A DNA stretch of 64,000 nt from Mycolicibacterium insubricum. GTDB lineage: Bacteria > Actinomycetota > Actinomycetes > Mycobacteriales > Mycobacteriaceae. Made by a program: the position numbers and the translations under genes. The notes below the pieces were generated by a model. It searched no databases. It saw only the letters and a program-made list of their open reading frames with translations, and had not been told where the DNA came from. Shown piece after piece: positions 1,656-12,925 of this stretch; the stretch's first letter is position 1; every line of letters starts with the position of its first letter. The stretch lies in NCBI RefSeq assembly GCF_010731615.1, contig NZ_AP022618.1:1364001-1428000 (forward strand), in the 5' to 3' direction.

Positions 1656-4600
1656 GTGGCGCGCATCTTCCTCAGCTATTCGCGGGAGAACAAGCAGGCC
1701 GCGCATGCGCTGAAGAACTGGCTGCAGGCGCAGGATCCGGACTTGGCCGACGACATCTTCATGGACGTCGACCAGCAGTCCGGCATTCGTCCCGGCGAGC
1801 AGTGGCGAAACTCCATCACCCGCGCGATCGACCGCTGCGAGGTGCTGATCGGCTGCGTCTCCCCGGACTGGGAAACCTCCACGATGTGCCAGGCCGAGTA
1901 CATGCTCGCCCTGAGCAAGGGCAAGCGGGTGATCCCGGTGCACGTCGTGCCGATGGCCGAGGTCGGCTCCACCGCCGACCTCAACGGCATCCCGATCTAC
2001 CCGGATTCCGCCGACGACACCGTCCGGGTCGACGCCACCGACTTCTCGCTGACCGGGCTGCACCGGCTGCTGTCGGACATTTCGAGTGAGAACATCAAGT
2101 TCGAGTTCCCCGCCGGCCGCACGCCCTACCGCGGCCTGGAGCCGCTCGGCGAAGAGGACGCCGCGGTGTTTTTCGGCCGCGACGGTGACCTGGCCCGCGG
2201 CATGTCGTCGCTGCGCAGCGTGCGGCTCACCGACAAGACGCTGTTCGTCATCTCCGGACCCTCGGGTGCGGGTAAGTCGTCGTTCCTGCGCGCCGGTCTG
2301 CTGCCCCGGATGCGCCGCGACACAAAGAATTTCATCGTGCTCGACGTCGTCCGTCCGGGCCGTCAGGCGATCACCGGCAGCTCCGGCCTGGCAGCGTCGG
2401 TGTACAACGCCGCCGGCTCGCTGACCGGCACCACGCGCGCCGAGGTGATGCGGGTGTGTCAGTCCGATCCCGACGAGGTCCTGGAGATGCTGGGCCGGCT
2501 CCACGAGGCCACCACCGACGACCAGGGCGGCGACGAGGACAAATCCCCGCCGACCCTGGTGCTGCCGGTGGATCAGGCCGAGGAGCTGTTTTCCACCGGT
2601 GAGGACCCCGACGGCAAGGGTGAGGCGTCGGCGTTCCTGGACCTGATCCGCACCCACGCCGAACGCGATGCAACGCAACGGATTCCGCTGCTGGTCATCA
2701 TGACCATCCGGGCCGACCGGTTCGAGGCGCTGCAGACCGCCGATCAGCTCAAACTGGTCAAGTATGAACTCTTCGGGGATCTGCGGCCGCTGGGCGACGC
2801 CGAGTTCCGTGCGGTAATCGAGGGACCGGCGAAGGTCGGCGGCGCCGACGGTAAACCGATCATCATCGAGGACGCACTGGTCGACCAGCTGGTCAACGAC
2901 TGTCAGCGCGGCGGCGGCAGCCTGCCCCTGCTGTCGCTGACCATGGCGATGCTGTACGAGAACCACCGCGGCGCCGACGGCACGCTGAAACTCGCGGACT
3001 ACAAACCGGATTCGATGAACTCGGTGGTCCAGTCGCTGGTCGACGAGGTGGTGGTCGGCGACACCGAGCGCAAGTTGGTGGAGCGCGCGTTCCCGTCGCT
3101 CGTGGACGTCGAGCCCGGCACCAACAAGGCCGCCCGCCGCGTCGCCCGCTGGGACGAGTTCGACGAGGACGTCAAAACCCTGCTGAACCAGCTGGTCGCC
3201 CAGGGGCTGCTGTCCAAGGCCGGTGGCGACGAGACCATCGAGGTCGCCTTCGAGGGACTCTTCGAGCGCTGGGGACTGCTCAACGAGCTGATCATCCGCC
3301 AGGGTCAGGACATCGCCCAGGCGGGCCTGCTGAACATCTGGTCGGACGCCTGGAAGCGCGACGGCGACCGCGGCAAGCTGCTGCAGGGCGACGACGTGAC
3401 CAAAGCGGTCGGCTTCATCGCTGACGGTTCCCCGCTGCGCGCCCGGCTGGAATCGGCCCGCCCCTACATCGAGGCCTCCCAGCGAGCTGAATCCCAGCGG
3501 CGCTTCCGCAACCGGGTGATCGCCGCGCTGACCGTCCTGCTGATCGTGGTGATGCTCGGCACCAGCGGCTGGGGCTTCTACAACCACCGCCAGACCCAGG
3601 CGGCGCAGCAGGCCGAAACCGGCATGCGGCTGGTCGCCGAGGCCGATCAGATGATGGAGGGCGGGCGTCCGGGCGGTGACGTGCTCGCACTGCAGCAACT
3701 CGTCGTCGCCAGCAAGATGGGCGCTCGCAGCGCCGACTCCGTCGCCAACCGCCGCCGCGATCTGGACCGCATCATGGAGAACCCGGACGGTGGGAACGAA
3801 CAGGGCGTCACCCCGGTTCGCGCCGTCGCGCTCTCCCCGGCCGGCGACGACGGCGCCGGAATGAAGATCGCCGCCGCCAATGACGACGGCACGCTGCGGA
3901 TCTGGGATGCCGACACCGGTGCCCTGGACCGCGAGATCAAGGTCGTCAACGACGGGCTGGTGCTCAGCGTGGCGTTCAGCCCGGACGGCAGGTTCGTCGC
4001 CACCGGAGACGAAACGGCCACCATGAACATCTGGGACGCCGCCACCGGCGAGCGCGTCGGTGTCCCGATGCACCACGGCGGCAAGGTGCTGAGCGTCGTC
4101 TACAGCCCGGACGGCGCACTGGTCGCCACCGGCGGCGAGGACGGATTCCTCACCGTGTGGGACGCCAGCGCCCTGTACAACCGGCCGCTGGTCCGGGAAC
4201 GTGCCGTCGCCGACGTGCGCGGCACCGTCCGCGCCGTCGCGTTCCGCCCGGCGGCTAAGCTGGTGGACGCGAAGGCTGAGGAGAACCACGCCATCCTGGC
4301 CACCGGGAACGACGACGGCGTTGTGCAGCTGTGGGATGCGCGAACTGGGGCGAAGATCGGCCCGGGGAAGCTGGCGGCCCCCAACTCGTCGATCATGAGC
4401 CTGGCCTTCGGTGTGGGCTATGACCCGGTGATCGGGGAACTGCCGCGGGTCGCGGTCGGTCTGATCGACGGCGAGGTGCAGGTGCTCGACGGCAACACCC
4501 TCGACCTGATCCGCGGGCCGGTCCTGGCGCACCCGGGAGTGGTCACCAGCGTGGCGTTCAGCCCGGGTGGCTCGCGGGTGGTTTCCGGCGGCACCGACAA

Positions 4601-5873
4601 CACGGTCCGGGTGTGGGACGTGGGCGGCGGCGTCGAAAAGCGGCCGTTGACCCCGATCGGCGCACCGCTGATCGGCCACCACGGCACGGTCTCCTCGGTG
4701 GCGTTCAACGGTGACACCACGCAGATCGTCTCCGGCGGCATGGACGGGTCGGTGCGCATCTGGGATGCGATCGCCGGCCTCCCGATCCCGGCCCAGCAGG
4801 GCAATGAGGTACGCGCGCTCGCGTTCAACCCGGCGGACGCCGAGCAGATGGCGTCCGGGGGTACCGACGGGACGGTGAAGCTGTGGAACCCGACCTCGGC
4901 TGCGCCGATTGGGCAGCTCGGCGAACCCGTTCCGCCCCAGGACGATTCGCACACCGTCAACGTGCTGGCCTACAGCCCGGACGGCACCCGGATCGTCGCC
5001 GGCGGCCAGGACGGCGTGCTGCGGTTGTGGGACGTGAACGTCCCGGCCGAAAAGCTGCGCTTCGGCCTCAAACGCGACCAGGCCAAGGCCGAGGTGCACC
5101 TCGGTGCGGACAATCGGATCAAGGCCGTCGCCTACAGCGGCGACGGCTCCCTGATCGTGACCGGGGACTGGAAGGGCGGAGTCCGGCTGTGGGACGGTCA
5201 CACCCTGGCCGAGAAGGGCTACCAGGCGGTCCGCTACCAGATCTGGAGCGTCGTGTTCAGCGCCGACAGCGAGCACATCGTCACCGGCTCCGGATACAAC
5301 CTGTCCGGCAACCCGGTGAACCAGATTCAGTTCTGGCGGGTCGATCGCGATTCCGACCAGGGGCTGGTCTCCGACGGTGACCCGATCACGGGTCCGCCAG
5401 GCTGGAACATCTATGCGCTGGCGTTCAGCCCGGACGGCAGCCGGGTCGCCTCCGGCGCCAACGACGGCATCACCCGGCTGTGGAACAGTGATCGCACACC
5501 GGCGGGCCCCCCGCTGGGGGCCGACCAGAACACCGTGTCGAGCCTGGCCTTCATGCACCACCGGCCTTGGTTGATTACCGGCGGCAGTGACGGCAAGGTC
5601 CGATTGTGGGACGTGGCGGCGTTCCGGCCGCTGGGCAGCCCGATCGACGCGCGGCAGACCTGGATTCACAGCGTCGCGGTGAATCCCGACGACACGCTGA
5701 TTGCCTCGGCGGGTGCCGACGGCACCATCCACCTGTGGCGGGTGCCCCCCGACCTGGTGGAAAACCTCTGCAGCAAGATCAACGCCAATATGTCGGTCGA
5801 GCAGTGGAATGCGGTGGTCGGGAACTCGCTGCGTTATCAGACGCAATGCGAGGGCCTGCCGATTCCCAAGTAA
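1656..5873 (+). CDS. TIR - STAND NTPase - TM - WD40 protein
   Basis: A 1405-residue protein with four parts. Residues 1-130 form a TIR domain (opening ARIFLSYSREN; the acidic residue in CQAEYML, E81, sits where TIR NADases carry the catalytic Glu). A nSTAND1-type P-loop NTPase follows, starting PYRGLEPLGEEDAAVFFGRD, with Walker A GPSGAGKS at residues 201-208. One transmembrane helix lies near residues 620-642. The C-terminal half holds about 14 WD40 repeats (GxxDGxVRLWD pattern), enough for two seven-bladed propellers. The GTG start is preceded by gggagagggg. The NTPase and TIR parts should face the cytoplasm, with the propellers across the membrane if the single helix is real. This layout resembles STAND sensors used in signalling and anti-phage defence. 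The role here is inferred, not known. Confidence 0.9.
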   Translation: MARIFLSYSRENKQAAHALKNWLQAQDPDLADDIFMDVDQQSGIRPGEQWRNSITRAIDRCEVLIGCVSPDWETSTMCQAEYMLALSKGKRVIPVHVVPMAEVGSTADLNGIPIYPDSADDTVRVDATDFSLTGLHRLLSDISSENIKFEFPAGRTPYRGLEPLGEEDAAVFFGRDGDLARGMSSLRSVRLTDKTLFVISGPSGAGKSSFLRAGLLPRMRRDTKNFIVLDVVRPGRQAITGSSGLAASVYNAAGSLTGTTRAEVMRVCQSDPDEVLEMLGRLHEATTDDQGGDEDKSPPTLVLPVDQAEELFSTGEDPDGKGEASAFLDLIRTHAERDATQRIPLLVIMTIRADRFEALQTADQLKLVKYELFGDLRPLGDAEFRAVIEGPAKVGGADGKPIIIEDALVDQLVNDCQRGGGSLPLLSLTMAMLYENHRGADGTLKLADYKPDSMNSVVQSLVDEVVVGDTERKLVERAFPSLVDVEPGTNKAARRVARWDEFDEDVKTLLNQLVAQGLLSKAGGDETIEVAFEGLFERWGLLNELIIRQGQDIAQAGLLNIWSDAWKRDGDRGKLLQGDDVTKAVGFIADGSPLRARLESARPYIEASQRAESQRRFRNRVIAALTVLLIVVMLGTSGWGFYNHRQTQAAQQAETGMRLVAEADQMMEGGRPGGDVLALQQLVVASKMGARSADSVANRRRDLDRIMENPDGGNEQGVTPVRAVALSPAGDDGAGMKIAAANDDGTLRIWDADTGALDREIKVVNDGLVLSVAFSPDGRFVATGDETATMNIWDAATGERVGVPMHHGGKVLSVVYSPDGALVATGGEDGFLTVWDASALYNRPLVRERAVADVRGTVRAVAFRPAAKLVDAKAEENHAILATGNDDGVVQLWDARTGAKIGPGKLAAPNSSIMSLAFGVGYDPVIGELPRVAVGLIDGEVQVLDGNTLDLIRGPVLAHPGVVTSVAFSPGGSRVVSGGTDNTVRVWDVGGGVEKRPLTPIGAPLIGHHGTVSSVAFNGDTTQIVSGGMDGSVRIWDAIAGLPIPAQQGNEVRALAFNPADAEQMASGGTDGTVKLWNPTSAAPIGQLGEPVPPQDDSHTVNVLAYSPDGTRIVAGGQDGVLRLWDVNVPAEKLRFGLKRDQAKAEVHLGADNRIKAVAYSGDGSLIVTGDWKGGVRLWDGHTLAEKGYQAVRYQIWSVVFSADSEHIVTGSGYNLSGNPVNQIQFWRVDRDSDQGLVSDGDPITGPPGWNIYALAFSPDGSRVASGANDGITRLWNSDRTPAGPPLGADQNTVSSLAFMHHRPWLITGGSDGKVRLWDVAAFRPLGSPIDARQTWIHSVAVNPDDTLIASAGADGTIHLWRVPPDLVENLCSKINANMSVEQWNAVVGNSLRYQTQCEGLPIPK

Positions 5874-5971: not shown

Positions 5972-6214
5972 ATGAGCCAAAGTGCGACAGGTGTGGTGGC
6001 GCGGGGTGCTGCTTGTGTCGCGACGCTGGTCGGCGCGATGATCGCCACCGCGCAGGCACCGGCACAGGCCGATCCGTGCACCTCCTCAATGGTCGCACCG
6101 CCTGCCTACTGCGTCCCGGCCCAGGCGCCGGGACAGCAGCCCAAGGCCGATGCCAAGGAGCAGCGGGACGCCACGGCCGGCGGCGGCGCGGCCCGTCCCG
6201 GCGGCCATCACTGA
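5972..6214 (+). CDS. small secreted protein of unknown function
   Basis: An 80-residue product. The N-terminal signal peptide runs about residues 1-33 (hydrophobic stretch followed by AQAPAQA, likely cleaved before DPC). The mature part is short, with two cysteines in DPCTSSMVAPPAYC, then a Pro/Gln/Lys/Gly-rich tail ending in HH. The ATG at 5972 is chosen over an upstream in-frame start because it follows a G-rich ribosome-binding stretch and directly begins the signal peptide. Similar tiny secreted proteins with a DPC...YC start are common in mycobacteria and uncharacterised. It precedes the lanthipeptide locus by 120 bp, but there is no evidence that the two are linked. Confidence 0.7.
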   Translation: MSQSATGVVARGAACVATLVGAMIATAQAPAQADPCTSSMVAPPAYCVPAQAPGQQPKADAKEQRDATAGGGAARPGGHH

Positions 6215-6334: not shown

Positions 6335-6472
6335 GTGAGGACTACCGACGTACTGGTCGCCGAGAACCCGCTGCGGACCGTCATCTCCGACGCCGAGCTG
6401 GAGGTCGCCGCCGAGGACCTGGCGCTGATGTACACGGCACAGACCTCCTCCTACAGCAGGTGCTGCAACTAG
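6335..6472 (+). CDS. putative class II lanthipeptide precursor (LanA)
   Basis: GTG at 6335 with a good ribosome-binding site (agaaagga, 6321-6328, 6 nt away) opens a 45-codon frame. It encodes an acidic leader (contains ISDAELEVAAEDLAL, residues 17-31) followed by a core-like tail MYTAQTSSYSRCCN (residues 32-45) with Thr34, Thr37, Ser38, Ser39, Ser41 and Cys43, Cys44. Ser/Thr followed by Cys is what a lanthionine synthetase dehydrates and cyclises, and the synthetase gene begins 9 nt after the stop. Two (methyl)lanthionine rings are possible. No double-Gly cleavage site is visible; the leader boundary could lie after Leu31 or Met32. It is too short for most gene callers. The assignment rests on size, composition and context, not on similarity. 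Confidence 0.8.
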   Translation: MRTTDVLVAENPLRTVISDAELEVAAEDLALMYTAQTSSYSRCCN

Positions 6473-6481
6473 CCATGGCCT

Positions 6482-9397
6482 ATGCGGCGCGCTGAGTTCG
6501 CGACGCGCGCCGCCACCTTCGGGGAGCTGCTGGGGCCCGGGTTCCGGACATCGGGGAGCCACAGCGACTCCACCCGGGCCGACGACGCCCTGGCGGCCTG
6601 GTGCCGGTCCAGCTCGGACGGCCGGTGGCCGCTTTTCGAACGCCGACTCGGCCGCGACGGCTGGGACCTCGAAACCGTCCGCCGCCGGTTCTCCGCCGCG
6701 CAGCCGTGCACGACGGATGCCTTCACCTGGGCCGCGGACGCGGACTGGATCCGCGCCGCGCTGATGACCCGGCCGACCGCCGGTGCCGGCGGCCCCTTCC
6801 CGTTTTCCGATCTGTTCGTTCCGGTGGTCGACGAGGCGCTGCGGCGGCTGGGCCCCGCGCTGCCCGGCGCCGCGGTGCTGGCCGAATCGGCGCGCCGGGA
6901 CCTGTGCGAGCGGCTGATGGTCGATCTCACCGGCCTGTGCGCGGCGACCCTCTACGACCGGTTCACCGGGCACCCGGGCGGCTACCGATCCTTCATCGCC
7001 ACCGTCGACACCGACGGCATCTTCGCCGAAAAACCGGTGCTGCTGCGATTGATCGCCACCCTGGTCCGGCAGTGGCTGGACGCGACCGCCGAGTTCGCCG
7101 CGCGCCTGAGTGCCGATATCGACGCACTGCGCGGGTTGGGCGGCGCTGCACCCGATGCCGCGGTGGTCGCCGTCGGCGGCGGGCTGTCCGATCGGCACGA
7201 CGGCGGACGCACGGTGCTGACAGTCACTTTCGACGGCGGGCGCCGGTGTGTCTACAAGCCGCGGGACCAGCGTCTCGCGGCGGCCTGCTCGGATCTGCTG
7301 GACTGGCTGGGCGGGCAGGCGCCGCCGGCCGACCTGCGGGTCGCGCGGACGATATCCCGGGACGGCTACGGCTGGACCGAGTTCGTCGAACACACCGGAT
7401 GCACGGACGACGACGGCGTTTCCCGGTACTTCCAACGCGCCGGAGCCTGGCTGGCCCTGCTGTACGCTCTGGGCGCCGCCGACGTGCACCACGAGAACGT
7501 CATCGCCGCCGGGGACCACCCGGTGCCGGTGGACCTGGAATGCCTACTGCAGGAGGAAGATCCGAACCCGGCGCGCAGTGCGGCATACGCCGCCCACGAC
7601 CGGGCCCGGTCGATGATCGCCGACTCGGTTCTGTCGGTCGGACTGCTGCCCGGGTACGCCCGCGTCGGTGACCGGGAGATGCGCAGCATTGGCGGAATGG
7701 CCGCGGGCTGGGCGCAGCAGGCCGAAATCCGTTGGCGCCAGGTCAACTCCGACGACATGTCACCGGAGGCCACGGTCATCTGCGTCGACCCCACCAATCT
7801 GCCGCACATCGCCGGGGAATACGGCCGGCTCGACGCCCACCTGACCGAATTCCTCTCCGGATTCACCGACTACGCGAAATTTCTGAGCAACCGGGACTGG
7901 AGTCGATCGCTGGACCGGTTCGCCGGACTGGCGGTCCGCAAGGTCCTGCGGCCCACGCAGTACTACCATCTGCTGCTGACCCGGCTGCGTGACGATCGCA
8001 CCATGTCCGACGGCATCACCTGGTCGGTCCAGGCGGATTTCGTTGCCCGACTGGCGGACTGGAACACCGAGGACGACCCGCGCTGGCCACTGGTCGCGGC
8101 CCAGCGCGATGCCCTGCTGGAGTTGTCCGTGCCCATCTTCTCCACACCGTCGGATCCGGGACTCGTGCGGGTGCGCACCCGGCTGGCCGGTCTCGACGAC
8201 ACCGCGATCGCCCGGCAGATCGAACTGATCGGCCAGACCTCGAGTTTCCTGACCCCGCCGCAGACGACCCTCTCCGCGGCGGCGCACGGATCCGCGGAAG
8301 GCCAACCCGCGGCGGCCGCCGACCGGATCGCGCAGCAGATTACGGACTACGCCGTCCGGGCCGAAACCGGCGCGGCATGGACCGGACTGACCTGGTTCCC
8401 GGATTCCGACAGCTCACAACTGAGCGTGCTCGGCAACGACCTCTACAACGGCAACGGCGGTATCGCGGTATTCCTGGCCGCACACGCGCGACGGCGGTCC
8501 GATGCCGCCGCCGCCGACCTGGCCCGCGCTGCCCTGGCGATGCTGCGCGCAGACCTACACGGCGTCAACGCCTTCCGGTCCGCGCGGCTGCTCGGCGTCG
8601 GGGGAGCGACGGGCATGGGATCGATCGTCTACAGCCTGGCGGTCACTGCCGCGCTGCTCGACGACGACGGCCTGCGCGCCGACGCGCACCGGGCGGCCGG
8701 CCTGATCTCGGATCGGCTCATCGCCGCCGACAACCGGCACGACGTGATCGCCGGCAGCGCCGGGGCGATCCTGGGGTTGCTGCGCCTGTACCGTGATTGC
8801 GGTGACGCCTCGGTGCTGGCGACGGCCGTGGCCTGCGGTGAGCACCTGCTGCAGAACTCGCCGGCGGACTCCTGGACCGCGGACGGGATGAGCCACGGGG
8901 CCACCGGAGTCGCCTACGCAATGACCGCACTCGCCGCGGCGAGTGCCCGGGACGAGTTCACCCGGGCGGCAGCCGAATACGCGGCCGTCGGCGGTGACGG
9001 CTGCTGCGCGGGCGGGCAGGCGTCATCCCAGTGGTGCCACGGCGCTGCGGGAATCGGCCTGGCGCACCTGGGCATGCAGCGTCACCGTCGGGGCGCCGCC
9101 GCGGGGACCGTCGAGCATGCGCTGGGCCATGTCCTGGCGGACTGGCCGGCGCGGGTCGACACGCTGTGCTGCGGATCGCTGGGCAACATCGAGTTCCTGC
9201 GCGCCGCAGGACGATCTGATCTGGCCGAGGAGCGCCTGTCGGCGGTGCTGGCCTCGGCGCGGGCGAGCGGCGGTTACCGGTGGAACGGCGGTGACACCCG
9301 GTTCAACGTCGGGCTTTTCCGCGGTCTGGCCGGCGTCGGGTACACCTGCCTGCGGGGCATCGACCCGACCCTGCCCAATGTCGTGCTGTGGGAGTGA
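6482..9397 (+). CDS. lanM: class II lanthionine synthetase LanM
   Basis: A 971-residue bifunctional enzyme that would dehydrate Ser/Thr in the precursor and add Cys thiols to form lanthionines. The N-terminal DUF4135 dehydratase half shows VYKPRDQRL (K259), ADVHHENVI (D334, H336, N339) and VDLE (D351, E353), which match the kinase-like phosphorylation site motifs. The C-terminal LanC-like half carries the zinc ligands in WCHGAAGIG (C852) and LCCGSLGN (C896, C897). The third ligand is Cys rather than His, as in ProcM-like LanM enzymes. Length is close to the family norm of about 1000. The start at 6482 lacks a strong ribosome-binding site, suggesting translational coupling to the precursor gene. 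No LanT transporter or protease gene is adjacent. Confidence 0.93.
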   Translation: MRRAEFATRAATFGELLGPGFRTSGSHSDSTRADDALAAWCRSSSDGRWPLFERRLGRDGWDLETVRRRFSAAQPCTTDAFTWAADADWIRAALMTRPTAGAGGPFPFSDLFVPVVDEALRRLGPALPGAAVLAESARRDLCERLMVDLTGLCAATLYDRFTGHPGGYRSFIATVDTDGIFAEKPVLLRLIATLVRQWLDATAEFAARLSADIDALRGLGGAAPDAAVVAVGGGLSDRHDGGRTVLTVTFDGGRRCVYKPRDQRLAAACSDLLDWLGGQAPPADLRVARTISRDGYGWTEFVEHTGCTDDDGVSRYFQRAGAWLALLYALGAADVHHENVIAAGDHPVPVDLECLLQEEDPNPARSAAYAAHDRARSMIADSVLSVGLLPGYARVGDREMRSIGGMAAGWAQQAEIRWRQVNSDDMSPEATVICVDPTNLPHIAGEYGRLDAHLTEFLSGFTDYAKFLSNRDWSRSLDRFAGLAVRKVLRPTQYYHLLLTRLRDDRTMSDGITWSVQADFVARLADWNTEDDPRWPLVAAQRDALLELSVPIFSTPSDPGLVRVRTRLAGLDDTAIARQIELIGQTSSFLTPPQTTLSAAAHGSAEGQPAAAADRIAQQITDYAVRAETGAAWTGLTWFPDSDSSQLSVLGNDLYNGNGGIAVFLAAHARRRSDAAAADLARAALAMLRADLHGVNAFRSARLLGVGGATGMGSIVYSLAVTAALLDDDGLRADAHRAAGLISDRLIAADNRHDVIAGSAGAILGLLRLYRDCGDASVLATAVACGEHLLQNSPADSWTADGMSHGATGVAYAMTALAAASARDEFTRAAAEYAAVGGDGCCAGGQASSQWCHGAAGIGLAHLGMQRHRRGAAAGTVEHALGHVLADWPARVDTLCCGSLGNIEFLRAAGRSDLAEERLSAVLASARASGGYRWNGGDTRFNVGLFRGLAGVGYTCLRGIDPTLPNVVLWE

Positions 9398-9398
9398 G

Positions 9399-11969
9399 TC
9401 ACACCCGTTCGTAGCGGCGGGCGAAATCGGCGCCGGTCACCGGCCAGCATTCGCCGCCCGGGTTTCGTACCAGCCAGTCACCGGGCTGCCCGGTCGCCGT
9501 GCCCTCCAGCGTCTGCACCAGCACCGTCTCGGCCAGCTGCACGGCGTGCACCGGCGCGGTCTTGCGGTACCGGTCGCCGTCGACGTGTTCGTAGGTCTGG
9601 GCGAAGACATCGGCGGCCACCGACCAGCCGGCGTCGCCGTCGGTGACCCACCAGTCGCCGGTGTTGGCGCGCATCGAATCGGCCCGCGCGGTATCCCAAT
9701 TGGCTTCTGCGGAAATGGGTTCCGCACGGACGACGATCCTCGACCGGTAGCTCGAGGCGTCCGCCAGCAGGTCGCCGACCTCTGCGGGATCAAGCGTGCG
9801 CGGCGTCGTGTCGGTGCGGCACGGGCACAGTGGACGGCCGCAGCGTTCGGGCCGGAACTCCGGTGCCGTCCGGGCGGCGGTACCGGCCGGGACGATCGCG
9901 TAGCCGAATGAGGCGGCGATCGCGGGATAGGTTTCGGTGGCGATGCGCCGGTTGTACCGGGCGGCCTTGCGCAGATTCGGGTTCAACGTTCGGCCCAACC
10001 GCTGGGCGGTGTGCTGCGCGGTGTTCCAGCCGTCGTCGTTCTCCAGCGCCACCAGACCCGCGTAGCAGAACTCGTTGGCGGCCACACCGCTGAAGGTGGC
10101 GAGCCGAACCTCCTCGGGCGCACGCCACGGCGGCTTTTGCGTCCAGGGATAGCGACTACTGTCGGTCCAGGTGCGATCGAGCCAGTCCTGGTGTTCCTGC
10201 CAGGCAATGTACTTCTGACAGTCCTCGGGCATCGCAGGCCCGGGCGGCGCGCCGACGCCGTCGTGGCGTTGCAGCTCGAACCCGCACTCGGCCAGCAGCG
10301 TGAGCATGTGGTCGACGGCAAGTTTGCTGGAGTACCGGTCGCCGATCTTCTTCTTCGCCTCGCGGAGAAGACTTTCGCGCCAGGCAGTTTCGTCCCACGC
10401 CCGGCCCTGACTCACCGTCTTCGCCTTTGCCGCCTGGATCCGGCCGGGGTCAAGAGACGCCCGGCGAGCCTCCTCGACCTGCTGCTGCGTCGACTCACCC
10501 ATCGGGGCGCCGGGCTGCCAGCCGACCACCGACCAGGTCCCGTTGGAGAACATCAGGGTGTGGGTGAGACTGAACGTCCGGGCCCACTGCGTTCCGGTGT
10601 CGTCGGTCACCAGCGCTGCGTCCAGACCGGTCTCGGCCGGGTCCACCACCAGGAGCAGATCCTGCAACGTCTCCTCCGGATGGTCGCCGAGCCCTTTCCC
10701 ATCGGCCAGCCACTCCCGGCCGGTGGTGACGGTCTGCGGGTCGTCGAGGTAGCGCAGCTTGGCCGCCCCGGCGATCAGCTGCCGGTTGGCGACCGCGATC
10801 CGCAGGGCGTGGCGCCGGGGGAGTGCCGCGGCGGCCACCGACGTCGACGACGGGCCGGTGAAGATCTGGATCGTCAAACCGCCGGGTTCTTTCGGCGGTC
10901 CCAGGTTGTCCTCGCCGGGTTCGCGCAGCACGATCTGTGGCACTGGGATCTCGTCGTCGTCGCAGACGAAGCTCAGCGACCAGCTCAGCCGCCGCACCCA
11001 GATGCGAATGGTCTCGGCGAGCCCGGGCTGGTCCTGGTCGGTGGTCGTCGACGCCGGGAGGTCCACGACGTCGACGACCGCGCGCTGGATCCGCGGACTG
11101 CCGGTGATCGCAGCGACGATCAGGTGGCAGATGTGCTCGGCGATGTTCTCCGCCGGACAGGTGACCTCGTTGCCGGGCAGCGTCGTGGTGATGGTGTCCG
11201 GGCGCACCAACTCCGCGTAGACGGGGTCGTGGATGATGACCAGATCGGTGCGCCCGCGGTACTTCTCGGACTGGCCGGCCCGGATCACCTGAATCTCGTC
11301 GTGCAGCTGCATGTTGACGCCGTCGGAATCGGTGGCGATGACCACCCGCTTGGCGTGGCTGATCACCCGCCGGGCGGTGGGGGTGGTCAGTACCGCCTGG
11401 AGCTCGCCGGCGGCGATGATCGGTATGGCCGGGGTGGTGGCCATCGCCGCCACGGAATCGCGGCTCTCGGTGATCAGGATCGTCGGGATGTTGTTGGTGA
11501 CGGACGACTTGATCAGGGCGGCCGCGGTGTGACCGTCGCCGATGATCCCCAGGTGTGCCTTGGGCCGGACCAGGTGGACGAAATCCCGGACCCGGCGGGA
11601 CAACAGCACCAGGGAACCGGCGGCGAACAGGGTCAGCAGCAGTGCCAGGATCCCGACGATGCTCAGATCGGTCGGCGGCTGCGGGTCGTAGTCTGGGGTC
11701 AGGGACAGATAGCCGCCGGTGAACAGCGACAGGGTCGCCCACAGCCGCTGCGGGAACGACGACGAGACCTGGGTGGCGTGCTCGGCGTGGGTACTGTCGA
11801 CGGCATAGCGGCCGGTGAGCACGAAGCCCCACACGAACACGACGACGAACGCCGACACGAGAAGCCCGGGCAGGATGATCCGCCCGCGCAACCATCCATC
11901 GGCGCGCAACTGGCGCATTCGCCTCGGAGTCGACCGGCCTCGCACGGATCTGAATCTATCGGGTGTCAC
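9399..11969 (-). CDS. channel-like membrane protein with Rossmann (TrkA-N-like) domain
   Basis: From the GTG at 11967-11969 the product has 856 residues. Two transmembrane helices (about 32-52 and 102-123) flank a hydrophobic re-entrant-like stretch containing LFTGGYLSL (residues 82-90), the layout of a 2TM pore. A Rossmann-like segment follows (LGIIGDGHTAAAL, from residue 140; then an ILITES strand), as in RCK/TrkA-N ligand-gating domains. A canonical K+ filter (TVGYG) is absent. A later region (KAARYNRRIATETYPAI) faintly resembles RyR-type domains, and the C-terminus holds two copies of a GDW...W.V....FA..YE motif. An upstream in-frame ATG at 11999 exists, but the GTG start makes a 4-nt GTGA overlap with the preceding gene, matching the next junction. 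A gated ion-conducting or sensor protein is an inference. Confidence 0.75.
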   Translation of the reverse strand: MTPDRFRSVRGRSTPRRMRQLRADGWLRGRIILPGLLVSAFVVVFVWGFVLTGRYAVDSTHAEHATQVSSSFPQRLWATLSLFTGGYLSLTPDYDPQPPTDLSIVGILALLLTLFAAGSLVLLSRRVRDFVHLVRPKAHLGIIGDGHTAAALIKSSVTNNIPTILITESRDSVAAMATTPAIPIIAAGELQAVLTTPTARRVISHAKRVVIATDSDGVNMQLHDEIQVIRAGQSEKYRGRTDLVIIHDPVYAELVRPDTITTTLPGNEVTCPAENIAEHICHLIVAAITGSPRIQRAVVDVVDLPASTTTDQDQPGLAETIRIWVRRLSWSLSFVCDDDEIPVPQIVLREPGEDNLGPPKEPGGLTIQIFTGPSSTSVAAAALPRRHALRIAVANRQLIAGAAKLRYLDDPQTVTTGREWLADGKGLGDHPEETLQDLLLVVDPAETGLDAALVTDDTGTQWARTFSLTHTLMFSNGTWSVVGWQPGAPMGESTQQQVEEARRASLDPGRIQAAKAKTVSQGRAWDETAWRESLLREAKKKIGDRYSSKLAVDHMLTLLAECGFELQRHDGVGAPPGPAMPEDCQKYIAWQEHQDWLDRTWTDSSRYPWTQKPPWRAPEEVRLATFSGVAANEFCYAGLVALENDDGWNTAQHTAQRLGRTLNPNLRKAARYNRRIATETYPAIAASFGYAIVPAGTAARTAPEFRPERCGRPLCPCRTDTTPRTLDPAEVGDLLADASSYRSRIVVRAEPISAEANWDTARADSMRANTGDWWVTDGDAGWSVAADVFAQTYEHVDGDRYRKTAPVHAVQLAETVLVQTLEGTATGQPGDWLVRNPGGECWPVTGADFARRYERV

Positions 11970-12925
11970 TCGGCCGGCGGCGGATTCTGCCGCAACCACT
12001 CTCGAACGGCCAGCCGGACGTCAGGCGCGGTGAAGAACTCCTCGCATTCGTTGTTGTGCCCGAGGAAATCGGTGAACGGGTTGAAGTTCTGCCAGGCGCG
12101 CAGGGCCTTCTGTTCCTCGTCGAACACCGGCCACAGCTGCTCGCGGCGGTTCACCCGGAACGGCCGGTAGATGTCCTCCAGGCTCCACTGCCACCAGGTC
12201 ATGTTCCGGGCGAAGGTCTGCGTGTAGAACTTCACCTCCCGGACGTCGCGGCCGGAGATCCGGGCGACCTCCTCGGTGTAGGCGCGTTCGAACCCCCGGC
12301 TGGTGATCGGCCATTTCGGCATGGTCACCAGGGCGCTGATCCAGTCGAACGAGTCAATGTCGTTGTAGGAGCGGCTCAACAGCATTCGCAGGCTCTCGGA
12401 GGCCTCTTCCACCTTCGCCCAGTGTGGGTTGAGCTCGGCGTAGCGGTGGGGTTCGGCCAATTCGGTGAGCAGCTGTTCGGCCAACGGTCCGCGCTGGGTG
12501 AAGCGTCCCAGGCTCAGCGGATTGGCACCCAGCAGCAGATGACCGGCGCCCATGAACAGCGGGGCGTGCGCGGCCTTGACGTCGGTGAGCGTCCACAGCG
12601 CGACGTCGGGTTCGTGCCGGTGCACCCAGTCCAGCACACCGAGGCCGGTCCAGATCTCGTATCCCGCACCGCTATCCGCCAGCACCTGCGCGCGGAAGTT
12701 GGCCTGGTCGTCGCGGAAACAGCCGAGGCTGCAGTCGGCGACGACACCCGCCAGACCGGGCGGGCGACGGTCGTCGGTCAACAGCCGGTAGGCGTCCAGC
12801 GGGGTGTAGGCGATCAGGAAGCGGAATTCGAAACCGGGCCGCTGCGCCTGGTAGTGGCGTTCGAACTCGCGGTAGTTCATCGCCTTGCGATGATTGTCCT
12901 CGACGATCAGAAACCATCCGGTCAC
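11966..12925 (-). CDS. atypical receiver-domain protein
   Basis: A 319-residue protein. It begins TGWFLIVEDNH, the acidic pair (E9, D10) of a response-regulator receiver. A possible phospho-acceptor Asp64 lies in LAGVVADCSLG, and LWTLTD fits the position of the conserved Thr strand; the usual Lys is not evident. The C-terminal 170 residues match no DNA-binding domain I can recognise and are rich in Trp/Phe/Tyr. The GTG start at 12923-12925 overlaps the stop of the upstream membrane sensor gene by 4 nt (GTGA), and its own stop overlaps the next gene the same way. It probably relays a signal from the sensor to the channel-like protein rather than to DNA. That pathway is inferred. Confidence 0.7.
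   Translation of the reverse strand: MTGWFLIVEDNHRKAMNYREFERHYQAQRPGFEFRFLIAYTPLDAYRLLTDDRRPPGLAGVVADCSLGCFRDDQANFRAQVLADSGAGYEIWTGLGVLDWVHRHEPDVALWTLTDVKAAHAPLFMGAGHLLLGANPLSLGRFTQRGPLAEQLLTELAEPHRYAELNPHWAKVEEASESLRMLLSRSYNDIDSFDWISALVTMPKWPITSRGFERAYTEEVARISGRDVREVKFYTQTFARNMTWWQWSLEDIYRPFRVNRREQLWPVFDEEQKALRAWQNFNPFTDFLGHNNECEEFFTAPDVRLAVREWLRQNPPPAE

Follow-up and report, generated by a model that had tools for sequence, protein, structure and literature searches.

What does a tiny reading frame directly in front of a lanthipeptide synthetase gene encode, and which of its neighbours belong with it? The question is raised by a 64,000-nucleotide (nt) stretch of Mycolicibacterium insubricum DNA (NCBI RefSeq assembly GCF_010731615.1, contig NZ_AP022618.1, positions 1,364,001 to 1,428,000 of the forward strand; this whole stretch is called the window below), in which an earlier note had described a two-gene class II lanthipeptide locus. 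As judged by the conservation of its product, the frame is a real gene of a conserved precursor family. It is one of four same-strand genes, which encode a receptor-like protein (TIR domain, nSTAND1 NTPase, predicted transmembrane helix and WD40 repeats), a small secreted-looking protein, the 45-residue precursor, and a CCG-type class II lanthipeptide synthetase (LanM). We give a probability of roughly 0.55 to the reading that these genes form a TIR-STAND module for conflict or signalling to which a lanthipeptide is coupled as ligand or effector.

The precursor peptide and its synthetase

The peptide and its modifying enzyme occupy the following positions of the window:

6335..6472, + strand: lanthipeptide precursor, 45 amino acids, GTG start (family conservation, 26-row alignment, codon comparison)
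6434..6466, + strand: predicted ring-forming region with Thr34, Thr37, Cys43 and Cys44 (alignment of 26 members)
6482..9397, + strand: LanM class II lanthipeptide synthetase of the CCG zinc-motif type, 971 amino acids (Pfam, NCBIfam, alignment, tree)
9035..9172, + strand: predicted Zn ligands Cys852, Cys896 and Cys897 of the cyclase domain, WCHG ... LCCG (alignment with LicM2 and CylM; motif listing)

The precursor frame translates to MRTTDVLVAENPLRTVISDAELEVAAEDLALMYTAQTSSYSRCCN. AAGAAAGGA sits immediately upstream of the start, and 9 nt separate the stop from the ATG of LanM, just as the earlier note had it. The earliest start codon of the open frame is GTG 6218, not GTG 6335; a database protein, P0002, starts at the same residue as the GTG 6335 product. 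P0002 is 93% identical and probably holds the window's own precursor protein. The C-terminal end reads MYTAQTSSYSRCCN, and the tail, with its five Ser/Thr and two Cys residues, follows an acidic leader, a composition that had also been described correctly. The leader ends in ELEVAAEDLA and lacks a GG/GA cleavage site; a Gly at position 26 is found in one of the 26 family members (P0002). The precursor matches no Pfam family.

A profile built from three precursors matched 25 protein clusters in a search of 5.8 billion sequences (threshold E<=0.001), with E-values from 2.5e-21 to 2e-8. P0001 is identical to one of the profile's query rows, and the best match apart from the query rows and sequences close to them is P0004 (E 4.1e-17). 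One of the database precursors carries the name Mycolicibacterium sp. XJ1819; P0001 is the one seen in genomic context, and the other 24 are known as sequences alone. In the alignment of 26 members, R14, D19, E21, L22, E23, A25, A30, Y33, T34, T37 and C44 are invariant, Cys43 is present in 25 members and falls in a gap in the remaining one, and the most variable core positions are 38, 41, 42 and 45. The earlier note had made the conservation of the Ser/Thr/Cys tail a test of its proposal. Across the family Thr34, Thr37 and the two Cys residues are retained, with the one gap at Cys43; the other core Ser/Thr residues are not. Because only Thr34 and Thr37 are universal among the five core Ser/Thr, two Thr-derived rings appear to be the conserved minimum, likely as two methyllanthionine rings to the two C-terminal Cys residues. 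Over the last 31 codons, the ratio of non-synonymous to synonymous change (pN/pS) is 0.22-0.55 in nine of ten pairwise comparisons among five loci; the outlier, at 1.03, is the comparison of the window with locus L062.

These five loci lie in four of 396 sampled same-genus genomes, and LanM relatives in 25 of the 396; these are the figures to set beside the earlier remark that mycobacterial examples are rare. In a sample of the order (249 genomes) the precursor profile matched the window's own genome only. A sample of the phylum (246 genomes) added four weak matches in genomes of 1.3-1.7 Mb (E 0.002-0.01), which lie inside frames of 595-895 amino acids and were taken as chance. Wider sampling around genomes G078 and G145 (100 genomes each) gave no precursor loci beyond the known ones. 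A genome-wide search confined to this precursor type gave a single match in the window genome.

LanM scores 323 bits for DUF4135 and 114 bits for LANC_like in Pfam, and 578.8 bits for NCBIfam TIGR03897 (cut-off 304). Its cyclase zinc motif reads LCCG (DTLCCG) where LicM2 and CylM have LCHG, and we therefore place the enzyme in the three-Cys 'CCG' type. An excerpt of the PubMed Central (PMC) article PMC10027976 describes the CCG motif for promiscuous ProcM-like enzymes, and PMC11251773, also used in excerpt, names LanM groups CCC and CCH. LanM matches were found in nine of 61 relatives, counting the window genome. A scan of genome contigs with four CC-type LanMs as queries, from which 80 of 133 relatives were kept, returned close relatives chiefly from Mycobacterium, Hyphomicrobiales and Burkholderiales. 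Precursor-like frames lie near several of these genes; their leaders are of the kind SDEALEAAAG, but their cores differ widely. Most LanM relatives outside the CC type have different precursors or none that was recognised. In the comparison of homologous LanM loci that the earlier note had suggested, four same-genus homologues carry the small frame with an S/T..CC tail; in three same-genus loci (L013, L016 and L014) a small precursor frame stands directly before LanM. A tree of 50 rows (45 different), made by a quick method, unites the four CC-type LanMs in a single clade with a Shimodaira-Hasegawa-like approximate likelihood ratio (SH-aLRT) support of 99, and none of 500 label shuffles gave a value as low.

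In the same tree, mycobacterial CCG-type LanMs (L071-L100) are interleaved with enzymes of Hyphomicrobiales and other Pseudomonadota, a pattern that suggests transfer between phyla. In Mycobacterium montefiorense (L089), precursor-like frames at 7747 and 11509 flank the LanM gene and end in ILTPTAK and ILQPTAK; these tails are Cys-free, whereas the M. triplex frame (L082) ends in ILTPTCK. A dehydration-only product is possible for the L089 frames.

The assignment to class II, already made in the earlier note, rests on a LanM with DUF4135 and LanC-like domains, its zinc ligands, and an adjacent precursor with a leader and a Ser/Thr/Cys core. A leader ending in GG/GA and a transporter with a C39 peptidase are usual for class II and not obligatory; the window has neither. 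Class I has a separate LanB and LanC, and here there is a single bifunctional LanM. We also considered class III, given that the precursor scores 21.3 bits against NCBIfam NF038160 (class III lanthipeptide; curated cut-off 27), and rejected it: at E<=10 this model gives matches in all but one of 198 same-genus genomes (197) as well as in 10 of 14 controls, and none of the 198 genomes exceeds the cut-off. Against this rejection, the window frame is the best NF038160 match of the search (E 0.004), and at E<=0.1 the model also recognises nine of the 26 members of the family.

Upstream genes linked to the precursor

Upstream of the precursor, on the same strand, the window contains two further genes:

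1656..5873, + strand: receptor-like protein of 1405 amino acids, TIR - nSTAND1 NTPase - predicted transmembrane helix - WD40 (Pfam, hydropathy, motifs, homologues)
1665..1952, + strand: TIR_2 domain of this protein, residues 4-99 (Pfam; alignment of 25 STAND N-termini)
5972..6214, + strand: small protein of 80 amino acids with a signal-peptide-like N-terminus, then a Cys- and Pro-containing tail (position and hydropathy)

The description of a two-gene locus thus needs to be widened, as these two genes accompany the precursor in four of the five loci. The related statement that no LanT, protease or immunity gene is adjacent was right about LanT, no match to PF03412 (C39 peptidase) being present at E<=0.001 anywhere in the one-contig genome; taken to mean that nothing of note lies alongside, it finds no support.

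The receptor-like protein scores 58.8 bits for TIR_2, 201 bits for nSTAND1 and 286 bits for WD40, and a hydrophobic helix separates nSTAND1 from WD40. It has the Walker A motif GPSGAGKS and the Glu of the TIR CxxE motif. Since a TIR effector, a STAND NTPase (Walker A included) and a repeat sensor are all present, the protein is, by its sequence, like an NLR-like receptor. Five Lys/Arg residues precede the helix and one follows it; going by hydropathy and charge, the WD40 repeats may be on the outer side of the membrane, an orientation that would be in keeping with export of the peptide and with a partner that is secreted. Searches against PADLOC gave weak or repeat-driven matches of the receptor (HEAT-ARM_XIII, 82.9 bits; SAVED_TIR and mad3, E 0.0008-0.001), and LanM matches none of the PADLOC defence-family models. 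Part of the genus has several TIR-STAND genes per genome (L207 in G082; L194 and L209 in G078), including a tandem pair in G082. The 5972-6214 product matches no Pfam family and has two close relatives only, 98% and 88% identical (E<=0.01).

The five precursor loci come from four genomes. The receptor gene is adjacent in four of them, LanM is adjacent in four, and both genes are present in each genome. The order receptor, secreted-looking protein, precursor is repeated in four of the five loci. The receptor homologues upstream of the precursor are 37% (L059, on a contig of Mycobacterium sp. MBM), 31% (L060) and 38% (L159) identical to that of the window. L159 is a second precursor copy in genome G419 that follows a receptor and a secreted open reading frame (ORF) on a 17-kb stretch with no LanM match; the LanM of this genome lies with another precursor on a different contig. 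The distance from receptor stop to precursor start is 461, 453, 448 and 439 nt in the four loci. Each of these gaps contains a secreted-like ORF; in two cases, L060 and L159, the ORF's stop and the ATG of the precursor overlap. Similarity in position and type suggests homology among the four small proteins, and this homology is not proven by their sequences.

We compared the ORFs behind 25 STAND genes, from the four module loci and 20 further regions (L209, one of the controls, is truncated). The measure was the highest N-terminal hydropathy among ORFs of 50-200 amino acids that start no more than 250 nt after the STAND stop. The four precursor-linked genes reach 1.57-2.08, and none of the other 21 exceeds 1.17. 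With a cut-off of either 1.4 or 1.2, a secreted-like ORF is found behind 4/4 precursor-linked genes and 0/21 others; with 1.6, behind 3/4 and 0/21. A TIR-STAND search of 91 LanM loci, a set that counts some places twice and leaves the window aside, hit the CC-type loci L059 (present a second time as L070) and L060. The only further hits were to the nSTAND portion of L112 and, weakly, to a TIR domain in L076 (E 5.6e-4).

Separate origins of the receptors were also considered. In a tree of 25 rows the four precursor-linked STANDs do not form one clade, with long branches involved; in approximately unbiased (AU) tests on 24 rows a single clade is not rejected (p-AU 0.071 for all four, 0.125 without L159). 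The tree and the AU test together gave no conclusion.

Proposed function and rival readings

The ring pattern, maturation and function proposed here draw on few loci. LanM would dehydrate at least Thr34 and Thr37 and join them to Cys43 and Cys44, giving two methyllanthionine rings at the extreme C-terminus. Given that the leader lacks a GG/GA site and the genome has no PF03412 match, maturation and any export would follow a route other than LanT, or the peptide would remain in the cell. Since receptor, secreted-looking protein and precursor stay together even where LanM lies elsewhere, the modified peptide may serve the TIR-STAND receptor as ligand or effector, with the WD40 repeats as the part that recognises it. 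Recognition would perhaps happen on the outer side of the membrane, where the small secreted protein would be a partner; a peptide that stays inside the cell would be just as plausible. The TIR domain would respond by consuming NAD+, as is generally known of TIR domains, leading to immunity or self-recognition, and the peptide could either activate or restrain the receptor.

A sharper version of this idea, which we regard as tentative and less likely than not, is a lanthipeptide-gated NLR, in which the thioether-ringed peptide would be the dedicated ligand of a membrane-anchored TIR-STAND receptor. Specificity would then lie with those residues between Thr37 and Cys43 that vary, and lineage-specific peptide-receptor pairs could serve self-recognition or phage-triggered cell death. 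If peptide and receptor do form a module, lanthipeptide chemistry would be tied to an NLR-like receptor, a lanthipeptide type without a LanT peptidase would gain a testable role, and a group of mycobacterial TIR-STAND-WD40 proteins would have a possible ligand.

Several points weigh against a peptide-receptor module. The genomic context comes from only four genomes and five precursor loci. One of the genomes, G419, was assembled from a metagenome and is about 6% contaminated; for another, G145, the figure is about 5%. Locus L062, of the CC type, has precursor and LanM and neither receptor nor secreted ORF. In the non-CC locus L066, a gene about 4 kb from LanM is 32% identical to part of the receptor, with no TIR-STAND match. 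Of 148 same-genus genomes, 25 have a receptor match (E<=1e-30); most of these genomes have no such precursor, and some of the matches lack the TIR part. The secreted-looking proteins of the other three loci are 23-26% identical to that of the window, and the hydropathy rule was picked after the window's ORF had been seen. Finally, the receptor and peptide genes are known as co-localised only, which does not prove a joint function.

Some of these points would suit an ordinary small class II lanthipeptide cluster, making a bacteriocin or signal, with the TIR-STAND gene as a separate neighbour in a variable or defence region: L062 manages without a receptor, receptor-type genes are common in the genus, and excerpts of PMC12360287 and PMC12715929 report lanthipeptide clusters near defence genes. 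We consider this rather unlikely, given that four loci share gene order, strand and the 439-461 nt spacing, that a secreted-like ORF fills the space, and that stop and ATG overlap in two of them. Receptor and precursor also occur together without LanM in L159, and the single receptor match of the window genome (E<=1e-30) is the linked 1656-5873 gene itself. The supposition that the small frame is merely a chance ORF or a broken gene can draw on its shortness, its one sub-threshold NCBIfam match and its lack of a Pfam match. It is highly improbable in view of the 25 database matches (E 4.1e-17 for the strongest one beyond the query sequences), pN/pS below 0.6 in nine of ten pairs, and the presence of LanM, receptor or both next to the frame in all five loci.

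A distinctly less likely account than the ordinary cluster is an intracellular anti-phage lanthipeptide that acts alone on phage, the TIR-STAND protein being an independent second layer. Retention in the cell would fit the missing C39 peptidase match and the absence of Gly at the leader end, and intracellular anti-phage lanthipeptides from defence islands are reviewed in PMC12360287 (excerpt). However, the cases described in an excerpt of PMC12715929 are class I LanBC systems, whereas here we have a LanM, and a secreted-looking protein belongs to the gene set.

Known systems and neighbouring genes

How does a peptide-receptor module compare with systems already described? We found no report of a lanthipeptide/TIR-STAND pairing among the matching open-licence PMC papers, which for the longer result sets means the best-ranked ones (20 of 213, 20 of 558, 15 of 254, 15 of 45 and 10 of 40). 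The nearest known concept is the FxSxx system, in which FxSxx peptides are coupled with a TIR AP-ATPase, a radical SAM enzyme and a metallopeptidase (Kaur et al. 2020, PMC7159879, in excerpt), a precedent for peptide-TIR coupling. In both, the gene for a small modified peptide is linked to one for an ATPase with a TIR domain. Here, however, the modifying enzyme is a LanM, not a radical SAM enzyme, and the ATPase is of the nSTAND1-WD40 and not the AP-ATPase-TPR type. None of the module's four genes at the locus encodes a metallopeptidase or radical SAM enzyme, no FxsC family member is found at the cut-off (FxsC_Nterm, 26.9 bits; cut-off 130), and the precursor end is not of the FxSxx type.

The ProcM group has the same DUF4135 plus LanC architecture and LCCG zinc motif (PMC10027976, excerpt), and an SDxxLE leader stretch is shared with the precursors of the window LanM's relatives. 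In contrast to the ProcM group, the window genome has one precursor-family match with a conserved core instead of a hypervariable one, the precursor lacks a Gly cleavage site, there is no C39 peptidase match, and a receptor gene is adjacent. Antiviral STAND and NLR-like proteins share the tripartite arrangement of effector, STAND NTPase and C-terminal sensor (PMC10907252, excerpt); compared with these, the window receptor is predicted to span the membrane, has WD40 repeats at the sensor end, and is encoded with a lanthipeptide precursor. Anti-phage lanthipeptides ('lanthiphages') exist in Actinomycetota (PMC12360287), where they are of the class I LanBC type (PMC12715929; both in excerpt). They too are actinobacterial lanthipeptides linked to defence genes and possibly intracellular, but differ from the present system in class, and these excerpts mention no dedicated receptor. 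PMC12715929 appeared in 2025 and deals with defence systems that are co-localised with lanthipeptide production; its main text contains no words beginning TIR, WD40 or Mycobacter.

A mobile-element origin of the four genes was considered and set aside. No precursor relative was present among 200 pattern matches in viral contigs, or in plasmids (one relative as query). LanM matched 153 plasmid records, all below 60% identity (26.4-31.4% among 20 of the 153). The guanine-plus-cytosine content of the four genes is 0.652-0.728, compared with a window mean of 0.688 and 0.656-0.729 in 3-kb windows, and there is no tRNA within the window.

Upstream of the TIR-STAND gene, the window encodes a mycofactocin-coupled short-chain dehydrogenase/reductase (SDR) oxidoreductase (723-1565, + strand). 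On the other side, convergent with LanM, lies a gene for an 866-residue protein (9399-11999, - strand). The C-terminal stretch of this protein is 48% identical over 134 residues to a 137-residue protein encoded about 2 kb after LanM in L059 (12655-13068; Pfam PGDYG, 26.6 bits, cut-off 27), and the two are possibly a further shared gene.

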